From NCBI GenBank assembly GCA_015522635.1, contig WALW01000019.1, positions 248,001-312,000 on the forward strand: a stretch of 64,000 nt of DNA. Direction: 5' to 3'. The translations under genes and the position numbers were made by a program. The notes beneath the pieces are model-generated. The model saw only the letters and a program-made list of their open reading frames with translations, was not told the origin of the DNA and did not search any database. This stretch comes from Candidatus Tiamatella incendiivivens (GTDB taxonomy: Archaea; Thermoproteota; Thermoprotei_A; Sulfolobales; Acidilobaceae). This document shows positions 5,435 to 43,432 of this stretch, piece by piece (within the stretch, counting starts at the first letter, position 1; each line of letters opens with the position of its first letter).

Positions 5435-5511
5435 TGGTGGACCGGCCGGGATTTGAACCCGGGGCCTCTCGGGTGCAAGCCGAGCGCTCTTCCAAGCTGA
5501 GCTACCGGCCC
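5435..5511 (-). tRNA. tRNA-Ala(UGC)
   Basis: A complete cloverleaf on the minus strand with encoded CCA. The acceptor stem is GGGCCGG pairing with CCGGTCC, which contains the G3-U70 identity pair of alanine tRNA. The anticodon loop CTTGCAC gives anticodon TGC. There is no intron. The D arm and T arm match the tRNA-Ala(GGC) at 33271 except in the anticodon stem-loop. Confidence 0.97.
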
Positions 5512-5577
5512 ACTCTTCCATATTATACGTATCCATTCAATTATGGTTTTATAACGCTTTCCCTGCCGCCCAAACTT

Positions 5578-5613
5578 CTTATAAACCTATTTATGGTAGT
5601 GTTCTAATGGAAC
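5578..5613 (+). promoter_or_regulatory. cdc6 promoter with an ORB-like core over the predicted transcription start
   Basis: A TATA-like CTTATAAAC (5578-5586) sits about 50 bp upstream of the cdc6 ATG. Roughly 20 bp downstream is GTTCTAATGGAAC (5601-5613), read on the minus strand as GTTCCATTAGAAC. The same TCCATTAGAA core recurs in the repeats at 35.6-36.0 kb. This copy lacks the adjoining G-run. Placement over the expected start of transcription would suit autoregulation by Orc1/Cdc6; this is inference. Confidence 0.45.
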
Positions 5614-5632
5614 TTGTGGAGGATGCTCAGTA

Positions 5633-6865
5633 ATGGATGATATACTTGACGAAGTCTTCGATAGAACCCTCAAGAAATCTGTTTTCAGGCACAGAAGAGT
5701 ACTACTACCGGACTATATACCAACAATGCTTCTCCATAGAGATGAGGAAATTAAGAGACTTGGGTTAGTTCTTGCTCCCAGTTTAAAAGGAGAAAAGCCT
5801 AGTAACATATTCATATACGGCCTAACAGGCACTGGGAAAACAGCTGTAGCGAAATACGTTCTAGACAAACTAGTGAGAAAAGCTGGTGAGCTAGGTGTTA
5901 GAACTCGATACGTATACGTTAATCTGAGACAGCGGGATACGCCTTATAGGGTTTTAGCTGATATCGCAGAGTCCTTATCCGTGCAAATACCGTTTACTGG
6001 TCTGTCAACAGGAGAAGTTCTTACCAGGATAGTTAAGAGGCTTAATAGCGAAGAAGATATCATTCTAATTGCTGTTCTAGACGAAATAGACTTCCTTGTA
6101 AAGAAACATGGTGATGATCTGCTTTACAAGCTTGTTCGAATGAATAGCGAGCTAAAGAGTTCAAGTATTTCCCTCGTAGGTATAACTAACAACATATACT
6201 TTGTAGAACATTTGGATGCTAGGATTAAAAGTAGTCTAGGGGAAGAGGAACTGGTATTTTCTCCATATAAGACTGAACAACTGATAGATATTTTGAAAAA
6301 CAGAGCGGACGAGGCTTTTGCTTCAAGCGTCCTAGAGAACGGTGTAATAGAATTATGCGCCTCATATGCAGCTAAAGAGCATGGAGATGCAAGAAGAGCC
6401 CTTGACTTACTGCGAATAGCTGGAGAACTCGCTGACAGGTTAGGAGAAAACAGAGTTAGACTGGAACATGTGAAAATGGCAAGAGTAGAATTAGAGAAAA
6501 ATAGGTTAACTGAGATAACGAGGACTCTCCCTCTTCACGGTAAACTTGTTCTCTTATCCGTAATTCAATCCACACTAGGCGGTAGACGCTACGGAACCAC
6601 TGGAGAGATATACGATATTTACAAGAAAACGGCATTAGATATAGGACTAGATCCTGTGACGCTAAGGAGGGTTAGTGATATAATTTCTGATCTAGACATG
6701 TTGGGCCTCATTTCTGCTAGGCTCGTCAGTAAAGGTAGATACGGGAAAACAAGAGTAGTGTCACTAGAATCCGACGTAGGAACAATTATAGATGTTATAA
6801 GCGAAGAACCATTCCTGGGAGAATCTCCTGTGCTTGATAAAATAAGAAAAAGTTTAGGTATATAG
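5633..6865 (+). CDS. cdc6: Orc1/Cdc6 replication initiator
   Basis: A 410-residue AAA+ ATPase with a winged-helix C-terminus. Walker A is YGLTGTGKTAVAKY (near residues 62-75) and Walker B is VLDEIDFLV. Sensor-2 and lid features lie in HGDARRALDLLR, and the C-terminal winged helix spans about residues 300-400. This length and order are standard for archaeal Orc1/Cdc6, which binds origin recognition boxes and loads the MCM helicase. The ATG at 5633 follows GGAGGATG. DUF99 follows four bases after the stop. Confidence 0.95.
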   Translation: MDDILDEVFDRTLKKSVFRHRRVLLPDYIPTMLLHRDEEIKRLGLVLAPSLKGEKPSNIFIYGLTGTGKTAVAKYVLDKLVRKAGELGVRTRYVYVNLRQRDTPYRVLADIAESLSVQIPFTGLSTGEVLTRIVKRLNSEEDIILIAVLDEIDFLVKKHGDDLLYKLVRMNSELKSSSISLVGITNNIYFVEHLDARIKSSLGEEELVFSPYKTEQLIDILKNRADEAFASSVLENGVIELCASYAAKEHGDARRALDLLRIAGELADRLGENRVRLEHVKMARVELEKNRLTEITRTLPLHGKLVLLSVIQSTLGGRRYGTTGEIYDIYKKTALDIGLDPVTLRRVSDIISDLDMLGLISARLVSKGRYGKTRVVSLESDVGTIIDVISEEPFLGESPVLDKIRKSLGI

Positions 6866-33270: not shown

Positions 33271-33347
33271 GGGCCGGTAGCTCAGCTTGGAAGAGCGCCC
33301 GGTTGGCATCCGGGAGGCCCCGGGTTCAAATCCCGGCCGGTCCACCA
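33271..33347 (+). tRNA. tRNA-Ala(GGC)
   Basis: A full cloverleaf with encoded CCA. The acceptor stem GGGCCGG/CCGGTCC contains the alanine G3-U70 pair; the anticodon loop TTGGCAT gives GGC. T arm CCGGGTTCAAATCCCGG. No intron. Bases 33272-33318 are repeated exactly at 32162. Confidence 0.97.
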
Positions 33348-34284: not shown

Positions 34285-35667
34285 TTGCCTGATAAGGTAT
34301 CTTTTTTGAATATAGGTCTAGATGACATAGATACTCCTGGTGGAGGCTGTACAACTCATCTAGGAGCACTTCTAGCAGCATATATTATAGAGTATAAGAA
34401 ATGCAAGCTACTCGATTATCCTAACCTAGTTAGATTAAACCCCGGTATACCATGGAAAACCCGTGGTAATGCTTCGGTAGTCCTTCGAATTGATGGATCC
34501 TGCGATTCATCAATCAATGACCTCATGGAACTAGCATCCAGTTTTGTAGACTTTTACCAGGGTAATTGCAGGCATAGAAATAGCAGCCCTGGAATAGTTG
34601 TCTACGAAGGATACCCGTGGACTGGTGATATTAGAGATTTTTATTTTAGAACCCTCACTGATGTTGTTTTATTAGATGATGCTAGGAACTTCATGGAGAA
34701 CCATGGAATCTTATATAACAAAGGAAGAGGTGTAATAGGAGCCCTAGCAGGTCTAGCAGCTTTAGGTCCAGGTGATCCTTATACTTTTGAGTTGTTAGCC
34801 TATAGAGATCCGGAGTTTTGGGGGAAGAAGAGAGTTATTGGGTATCGTAATGTGCTCGAATATGACGTGTTAACCGGGGAGTTAACATTCTCTAATATCG
34901 ATCCTACAAAAAAGACTCAAATAATAACGCCACACGGCCCTGACCCTACTTATTTCGGTGTAAGAGGAACGGATCCTGAGAAACTTGTCCTAGCACTAGA
35001 AAAAATAAAGAGAAATGAGCCTATCCACGGGTGGTGTGTATACCGGACAAACCAGGCAACCTCTATACATGAAAAAAACATAAGTAAGCCAAGATATTAT
35101 AGAAGCGGTAAATACGATTGCAAAATCACAGATCATCCGAAGAAAATACCTGGAGGACATATAGTTATAGAAGCGACCTGTAATAATACACCTGTAAACC
35201 TAGCATTCTATAGAGAATCATATCCCCTCAACAAACTAGCAGCAATGCTATATCCAGGTGACCATGTAACAGTTACAGGATCTGTAAAACAGAGATCAAC
35301 AAGTAATTATCCAACCATTACCGTAGAAGTCCTATACATCGAGAAACTAGCTGTAAAAACTATAGAAATTACACCCAGATGTCCCAAATGCGGAGCCAGA
35401 ATGAAATCAAAAGGATCCAACAAAGGTTATGCATGCCCTAAGTGCGGATATTACGATAGAAAAGCTGTTAAAATAAAAATCTACATTCCCAGAAGCGTTT
35501 TACCAGGCCGTTATACACCTATACATATGGCTCATCTAGTTTCACCTAACTGGCTGAATGTTCCTACTCTCAGAAAATTCCCAGTTGAGATTATTAGCGG
35601 TTTCTGCAAAAAACTCGTTAACTCCCCAGTTAATCACCCCTCTGTTTCTAATGGATCCCACTTGTAA
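34285..35667 (+). CDS. tiaS: tRNA(Ile2) 2-agmatinylcytidine synthetase TiaS
   Basis: A 460-residue enzyme. The N-terminal catalytic domain has LNIGLDDIDTPGGGCTTHLG (DDxD phosphate-transfer motif); an OB-fold follows (GDHVTVTGSVKQRSTSNYPT), then a zinc ribbon CPKCGARM ... ACPKCGYYD. TiaS attaches agmatine to C34 of the CAU-anticodon isoleucine tRNA so it reads AUA. The start is TTG at 34285. The last ten codons are encoded by the first ORB-like repeat (35637-35662), so the natural C-terminal tail NHPSVSNGSHL is probably not functionally constrained. Confidence 0.93.
   Translation: MPDKVSFLNIGLDDIDTPGGGCTTHLGALLAAYIIEYKKCKLLDYPNLVRLNPGIPWKTRGNASVVLRIDGSCDSSINDLMELASSFVDFYQGNCRHRNSSPGIVVYEGYPWTGDIRDFYFRTLTDVVLLDDARNFMENHGILYNKGRGVIGALAGLAALGPGDPYTFELLAYRDPEFWGKKRVIGYRNVLEYDVLTGELTFSNIDPTKKTQIITPHGPDPTYFGVRGTDPEKLVLALEKIKRNEPIHGWCVYRTNQATSIHEKNISKPRYYRSGKYDCKITDHPKKIPGGHIVIEATCNNTPVNLAFYRESYPLNKLAAMLYPGDHVTVTGSVKQRSTSNYPTITVEVLYIEKLAVKTIEITPRCPKCGARMKSKGSNKGYACPKCGYYDRKAVKIKIYIPRSVLPGRYTPIHMAHLVSPNWLNVPTLRKFPVEIISGFCKKLVNSPVNHPSVSNGSHL
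35637..35662 (-). repeat. ORB-like box 1 (26-bp repeat, copy 1)
   Basis: Identical over 26 bp to 35927-35952. On the minus strand the core reads TCCATTAGAAACAGAGGGG, resembling the archaeal origin recognition box (a TCCA...GAAAC half-site followed by a G-run). It lies in the last codons of tiaS. Confidence 0.6.
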
Positions 35668-35681
35668 ATAGGACTCGGAGC

Positions 35682-35703
35682 CCCCTGTATTTCTAATGGA
35701 ATT
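35682..35703 (-). repeat. ORB-like box, degenerate copy
   Basis: Minus strand TTCCATTAGAAATACAGGGG matches the 26-bp repeat in the core and G-run with two changes. It lies 45 bp after copy 1 in the same orientation. Confidence 0.5.
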
Positions 35704-35926
35704 GCTTTAGCCTATCTTATTTTATAGAGGATGTATTATGTTTGTTTTTGTATAATGATCATATTAACATTAAGTATTCAATAATAATGTGTGTAAGCCA
35801 ATGATTCACATACTTATCTATTCATATTTATATTCCATATGAAGGTAATGGGTGCCAGGCTAGATCCTCTTTAATTCATATCAGTATATTGGCACAATCA
35901 TAGTAATACTGTTATTCTATGCCAGG

Positions 35927-35952
35927 CCCCTCTGTTTCTAATGGATCCCACT
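35927..35952 (-). repeat. ORB-like box 2 (26-bp repeat, copy 2)
   Basis: Exact second copy of the 26-bp repeat in the same orientation as copy 1. It ends about 75 bp before the likely porG start, so it could also affect that promoter. Confidence 0.6.
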
Positions 35953-36025
35953 AAATAATCATTCTTTGTTGGGAGATAAGCTTCATAAATTACTTGATAA
36001 CAATATTCTAACAGGCGGTTTAATT

Positions 36026-36583
36026 TTGTATGTTGAGATAGTGTTTCATGGTAGAGGAGGACAGGGCGGTGTAACTGCTGCAAATATCCTTGCTGGGGCA
36101 GCTGTTAGAGAAGGCAAATGGTCACAGTCGTTTCCTCATTTTGGAGCGGAAAGGCGTGGTGCTCCTGTGAGGGCTTATGCTAGGATAAGCGATCAACCTA
36201 TATTGAGGCATAGTCAAGTAACTAAAGCGGATATATCAGTGGTTCTCGACAGTGAACTTTTTAGTCTCGCAGATATAGTCAGTACTGTAAATAATAATGG
36301 TATCATAGTAGCGAACGCCCCTATAGATTTCAAAGCAGAAGTTAAAGGATCTCAATCTTTGTACTGCGTAGATGCTATGGGGATTGCAAAGGAACTGAAG
36401 TTAATTGTGGCAGGATGGCCGGTGGTCAATACAAGTATGTTGGGAGCATTGGTAAAAGCTACATCTGTAGTTTCTCTGTATAGCATTTTAAGTGAAATCG
36501 AATCTTATTGGCCTGGAAAGCCCGGTGAGCTTAACGCTGAAGCTGCTAGAAGGGCATTTGAGCGTACTATTAAATGTATATGA
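36026..36583 (+). CDS. porG: Pyruvate/2-oxoacid:ferredoxin oxidoreductase, gamma subunit
   Basis: About 185 residues from TTG at 36026, chosen because AGGCGGT lies six bases upstream and the protein then begins just before the family motif EIVFHGRGGQGGVTAANILA. The frame continues open to a TTG at 35966. Further signature: FPHFGAERRGAPVRAYARI and ADISVVLDSELF. The gamma subunit binds CoA in the four-subunit enzyme encoded with the three following genes. Confidence 0.9.
   Translation: MYVEIVFHGRGGQGGVTAANILAGAAVREGKWSQSFPHFGAERRGAPVRAYARISDQPILRHSQVTKADISVVLDSELFSLADIVSTVNNNGIIVANAPIDFKAEVKGSQSLYCVDAMGIAKELKLIVAGWPVVNTSMLGALVKATSVVSLYSILSEIESYWPGKPGELNAEAARRAFERTIKCI

Positions 36584-43308: not shown

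Positions 43309-43432
<124 letters not shown>

Follow-up and report, generated by a model that had tools for sequence, protein, structure and literature searches.

The region analysed (the window) comprises 64,000 nucleotides, positions 248001–312000 of the 389-kb contig C19 in a draft genome (G000) of 1.45 Mb in 27 contigs, from an uncultured thermophilic archaeon related to Candidatus Tiamatella. Within it, tiaS (34285–35667, plus strand; NF040849), the synteny anchor of the origin predicted here, is the left neighbour and porG/porC (35966–36583, plus strand; TIGR02175) the right neighbour of an array of four ORB repeats. ORB1 (35637–35662, minus strand; AGTGGGATCCATTAGAAACAGAGGGG) is an exact 26-bp repeat scoring 10/10 against the ORB pattern, and ORB4 (35927–35952, minus strand) is its second, identical copy. 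ORB2 (35682–35707, minus strand; AAGCAATTCCATTAGAAATACAGGGG) is a 69% copy with a score of 9/10, and ORB3 (35833–35852, plus strand; TTCCATATGAAGGTAATGGG) is a degenerate, inverted inner copy found by alignment and by comparison with relatives. The original prediction had described two exact 26-bp copies and a third degenerate one, all in one orientation, around an AT-rich and gene-free gap between tiaS and porG. These three copies are confirmed at 35637, 35927 and 35682, as are the AT-rich gap and its neighbours, but the inventory lacked the weak inverted copy at 35833–35852, and the array is not wholly extragenic: ORB1 overlaps the final codons of the tiaS ORF, so that the array lies partly inside the gene.

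Read on the minus strand, the strong repeats follow the design TCCATTAGAAA-(C/T)A(G/C)A-GGGG, in agreement with the proposed likeness to Orc1/Cdc6-binding boxes, i.e., a core joined to a run of G. A search of the whole genome, made on joined contig stretches that lacked 4,848 N and, at the ends, a few hundred bases, gave four matches to the full design (TCCANTNGAAA followed by GGGG) in 1.45 Mb, three of them within ~300 bp at the tiaS–porG gap; the motif is thus not scattered. The core TCCATTAGAA by itself is nonspecific (22 copies genome-wide), and exact short direct repeats are not rare (a 16-mer recurs inside 400 bp at 20 genomic loci), so that the weight of the ORB evidence falls on the G-run and on clustering. 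The core TTAG is shared by every strong ORB in the window genome and in its Tiamatella sister; GTGG, CTGG or CAGG occur in many relatives, which bears out the suggestion of a lineage-specific ORB. Elsewhere, a solitary full-score ORB (TCCATTAGAAACTAGGGG) lies between two genes at C16:11661–11678 without a partner; as an origin, this site was rejected, being solitary and having no skew evidence.

Between ORB2 and ORB3 lies a 125-bp spacer (35708–35832), a candidate duplex unwinding element of 77.6% AT, which places it in the top 0.08% of same-size windows within the 64 kb. The spacer contains a ucm (35746–35756, minus strand; ATTATACAAAA) matching at 10 of 11 positions the Sulfolobus ucm ATTATACAAAC, as taken from oligonucleotides printed in PMC12141716. 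An extended ucm 17-mer (TGATCATTATACAAAAA, 35745–35761) has exactly two copies in the genome, the other being on contig C27 at a second predicted origin, and ucm-like matches (two or fewer mismatches allowed) are present in the spacers of many relatives. The same plan of ORBs and spacer was reported in 2025 for Sulfolobus oriC1, where a short essential ucm lies midway in the spacer and mutation of either ORB2 or ORB3 abolishes activity (PMC12141716). The inner inverted ORB3, degenerate in the window, scores 8/10 in the sister (TTCCACTAGAAGAGGACGGG) and is intact in several relatives; as a weak copy here it would make up the last part of the known oriC1 layout. A partial search for the ucm-binding protein UBP found no homologue among the few small basic ORFs compared.

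The orc1/cdc6 gene of the window (5633–6865, plus strand; TIGR02928, 414 bits) encodes an initiator of the Orc1-1 type, presumed to be the ORB-binding protein. In line with its earlier identification, the solved structure that it matches best is chain 2v1u (E=2e-136), the Orc1/Cdc6 protein of A. pernix; it also matches 2qby_A (Cdc6-1; E=1e-121). The core was said to recur in the cdc6 promoter, and it does so (TTCCATTAGAA, 5602–5612), as part of a mini-ORB in the cdc6 leader (5601–5621, minus strand; CTCCACAAGTTCCATTAGAAC) that lacks the G-run and carries a second TCCAC half-site. This element is conserved in the family: a pattern picked after viewing the sequences detects a TCCANNNGAA-type core, without a G-run, in 28 of the 30 cdc6 leaders compared, and in most of these another TCCAC half-site precedes the core. 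It is a candidate autoregulatory site, probably one of Orc1 autorepression. The cdc6 gene lies ~29 kb from the ORB array and is likewise non-adjacent in most relatives with known positions; adjacency of the initiator gene was treated as a common association, usual and not universal, rather than as defining for the oriC1 type.

In the sister, cdc6 lies ~2 kb upstream of tiaS as part of a tRNA-Ala(TGC)-cdc6-mdh block (L124:2573–3996), which here (5435–6865) is 29 kb off and inverted, and tRNA-Ala genes at 5435–5511 and 33271–33347 are near the likely breakpoints of this rearrangement. A further tRNA of 119 bp (43312–43430, minus strand) was matched by Rfam, missed by ARAGORN and probably contains an intron. 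In the Orc1 winged-helix domain (6671–6679, ~residue 349), Tiamatella and one relative (G012) have RRVSD, and the other aligned relatives RR(V/A/L)SG; a match between this VSG-to-VSD change in the recognition helix and the TTAG core was considered and rejected, there being no clean co-occurrence. Finally, a second orc1/cdc6-like gene (C10:30683–31819) sits beside a terminus-like (negative) GC3-skew switch at ~32.8 kb; its locus was rejected as an origin on account of that switch and of the lack of ORB-like repeats beside the gene.

Conservation was examined at the level of the genus (g1), of the family (f1) and of further families in the same order; one of these, f11, has genomes that we infer, from their size and canonical ORBs, to be Sulfolobaceae-like. 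The nearest named relative found is the MAG Candidatus Tiamatella sp. S016_46, with a TiaS 72% identical to that of the window. In 40 relatives, matches to the ORB pattern were clustered, most clusters lying downstream of tiaS, and the reversed-pattern control gave at most two per genome. A density count over the tiaS loci of 60 further genomes found, for family f1, 41 ORB matches in 14.2 kb of gap region versus 5 in the surrounding 221 kb (2.89 versus 0.023 per kb). In family relatives, canonical ORBs (TCCAGTGGAAAC..GGGG) occupy the corresponding gap, downstream of tiaS; the canonical core, e.g., TCCAGTGGAAACGGAGGGG, is found in many relatives, and many have two to four ORBs. The sister retains the three strong ORBs at nearly the spacing seen in the window (46 and 245 bp), and several relatives display the layout ORB1(-), ORB2(-), spacer, ORB3(+), ORB4(-), in which ORB2 and ORB3 point their TCCA ends toward the spacer. 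Four genomes (G007, G008, G010 and G015) have rpiA in place of porG beyond the array and still carry canonical ORBs, indicating that conservation tracks the ORBs and tiaS and not the por operon. In two genomes of genus g13 the ORBs lie 4.5 kb from tiaS, and the exact locus can therefore move.

Strand composition was analysed in a scan blind to the ORBs, in which GC3 skew was modelled by regression from the coding strand of each gene and from whether the gene lay to one side or the other of a moving switch point. On C19, with 348 ORFs, no gene boundary makes a better switch than 283,625, the tiaS–porG boundary over the ORB gap (t=6.0 for an arm effect of 0.044; p=0.003 by permutation, the lowest value that this test can give; p between 0.0005 and 0.02 by block permutation, with blocks of 1 to 20 genes), an inflection such as the original prediction had proposed to look for. 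Four-fold degenerate sites gave an identical switch point, and the bootstrap distribution has a long left tail, with its 5% quantile at 190 kb. This switch is the strongest origin-like one among the contigs tested.

Another origin-like GC3 switch was found on C27 at 154,396 (t=4.8; p between 0.0005 and 0.06 by block permutation). An intergenic gap at C27:154250–154490 contains two copies of the 16-bp sequence ATTATTGTAAGATGAA, 45 bp apart, together with the second ucm 17-mer, and a 258-aa winged-helix gene lies at its edge. Relatives of this gene are present in f1, f3, f4, f7 and f11, and none was found in the sampled f2, f5, f6, f8, f9 and f10. From its context and this patchy, WhiP-like distribution it is probably whiP, and the Pfam and NCBIfam profiles included no WhiP model matching it. 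The genome thus appears to have two origins, as in Aeropyrum pernix, where exactly two are active, one dependent on Orc1-1 and the other on WhiP (PMC10769869). Common to both organisms are the arrangement, with two origin-like switches here, at the Orc1-1 ORBs and beside the probable whiP, both accompanied by ucm, and the initiator, the best PDB match of the window Orc1 being 2v1u; the lineage-specific ORB core and an 18-bp palindrome at both predicted sites set the present genome apart.

We interpret the tiaS–porG locus as an Orc1-1-dependent chromosomal replication origin of the oriC1 type, with a probability of about 0.93. What computation shows is an array of ORBs kept at one locus across related genera, an AT-rich gap with a ucm in it, a gene for the cognate initiator and a skew switch at this point. 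The earlier proposal of a candidate origin is supported by the conserved locus, the ucm and the switch, and every computational check that it had suggested came out in its favour, firing itself being predicted from sequence. By homology to Sulfolobus, Orc1-1, the product of the gene at 5633, would bind the ORBs, which would face the AT-rich unwinding region containing the ucm; this region would open, MCM would be loaded onto it, and the origin would fire with forks departing bidirectionally. Counted against this interpretation are the weak inner inverted ORB3, the distance of ~29 kb to cdc6, the displaced ORBs of g13, the long left tail of the skew bootstrap, the negative outcome of the partial UBP search and the draft state of the assembly.

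A degenerate ORB3 would be expected of a real origin that is now dormant or decayed, its sequence inherited and its firing taken over elsewhere, e.g., by C27 only, and dormant archaeal origins are known (PMC4595724). However, ORB1, ORB2, ORB4 and the ucm are intact, and the switch at tiaS–porG is the strongest origin-like one of the tested contigs, leaving dormancy a slim chance. The position of the repeats directly upstream of porG, with one of them overlapping the end of tiaS, could also be that of operators for a transcription factor of the por operon (or of tiaS), the likeness to ORBs then being coincidental; we hold this to be slimmer still, as operators predict neither a skew switch nor a ucm, and the canonical ORBs persist in the relatives with rpiA instead of porG. 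Although some exact short direct repeat is found at about 20 loci of the genome, a chance local duplication without function is refuted by the related genera, which keep the ORB pattern at this site although their cores differ, and its probability is negligible.

An oriC1-type origin at this locus would be of a known kind. With Sulfolobus oriC1 (PMC12141716, PMC4010727) it shares ORBs composed of TCCANTNGAAAC and a G-run, an AT-rich spacer with ucm, ORB core ends directed toward the spacer, and an Orc1-1 initiator. It differs in the core (TTAG, not GTGG), in the extra outer ORB4, the wide spacing and the weak inner ORB3, and in the cdc6 gene 29 kb away and the tiaS–porG neighbourhood. The analysis locates a very probable origin to within ~300 bp for an uncultured lineage of archaea in which adjacency to cdc6 would mislead, and the retention of an ORB locus just downstream of tiaS across genera with divergent cores allows the co-evolution of initiator and site to be studied.

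The 18-bp palindrome, GTTAACYCCCCRGTTAAC, occurs twice at the predicted origin of the window, once adjoining ORB1 (35617–35634, plus strand; GTTAACTCCCCAGTTAAT) and once inside tiaS (34869–34886, minus strand; GTTAACTCCCCGGTTAAC), and elsewhere in the genome at C27:154260, C27:155342 and C16:645. With up to one mismatch to GTTAACTCCCCRGTTAAC, these are five genome copies, four of which belong to the two predicted origins; the corresponding share in the sister is four of six copies. Among 66 copies in five complete relatives, 10 lie within origin windows, where 0.18 would be expected (~50-fold enrichment), the windows having been set after the association was noticed, so that the p-value is descriptive. 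The best match in each of 30 genomes, a neighbour test that needs no choice of origin windows, agrees with this enrichment: the only recurring neighbour families are tiaS, whiP and their immediate neighbours. The reversed-pattern control was near zero. The palindrome is also dispersed elsewhere, with up to ~30 copies in some relatives.

As far as searched, GTTAACYCCCCRGTTAAC has no earlier description, and among the literature matches listed no archaeal paper gave its letters. Like the GTTAAC palindrome, the SegB sites (TCTAGA-S-TCTAGA) are palindromic and dispersed over the chromosome, but the sequences are unrelated, and in the accessible part of the source (PMC12284271) SegB sites are mostly intragenic and no pairing at both origins is reported. 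A reading of the palindrome as a SegB site was rejected by comparing GTTAACYCCCCRGTTAAC with the SegB consensus TCTAGASTCTAGA. Tentatively, and at somewhat less than even odds, GTTAACYCCCCRGTTAAC may be an undescribed origin-linked cis element, i.e., a protein-binding site that serves two origins differing in their initiators (one Orc1-1, the other WhiP-like) as well as dispersed sites, in this family, some f8 members and some Sulfolobaceae-like genomes; its role might be, e.g., to couple origins, to organise the chromosome or to act in segregation. If functional, a palindrome shared by two such origins would offer a handle on the coordination or segregation of archaeal origins. In one Sulfolobaceae-like genome (G093), 11 of 13 palindrome copies lie inside 41 kb, and in f8 genomes the palindromes come as inverted pairs, with 0.8 to 3.5 kb between the two copies.
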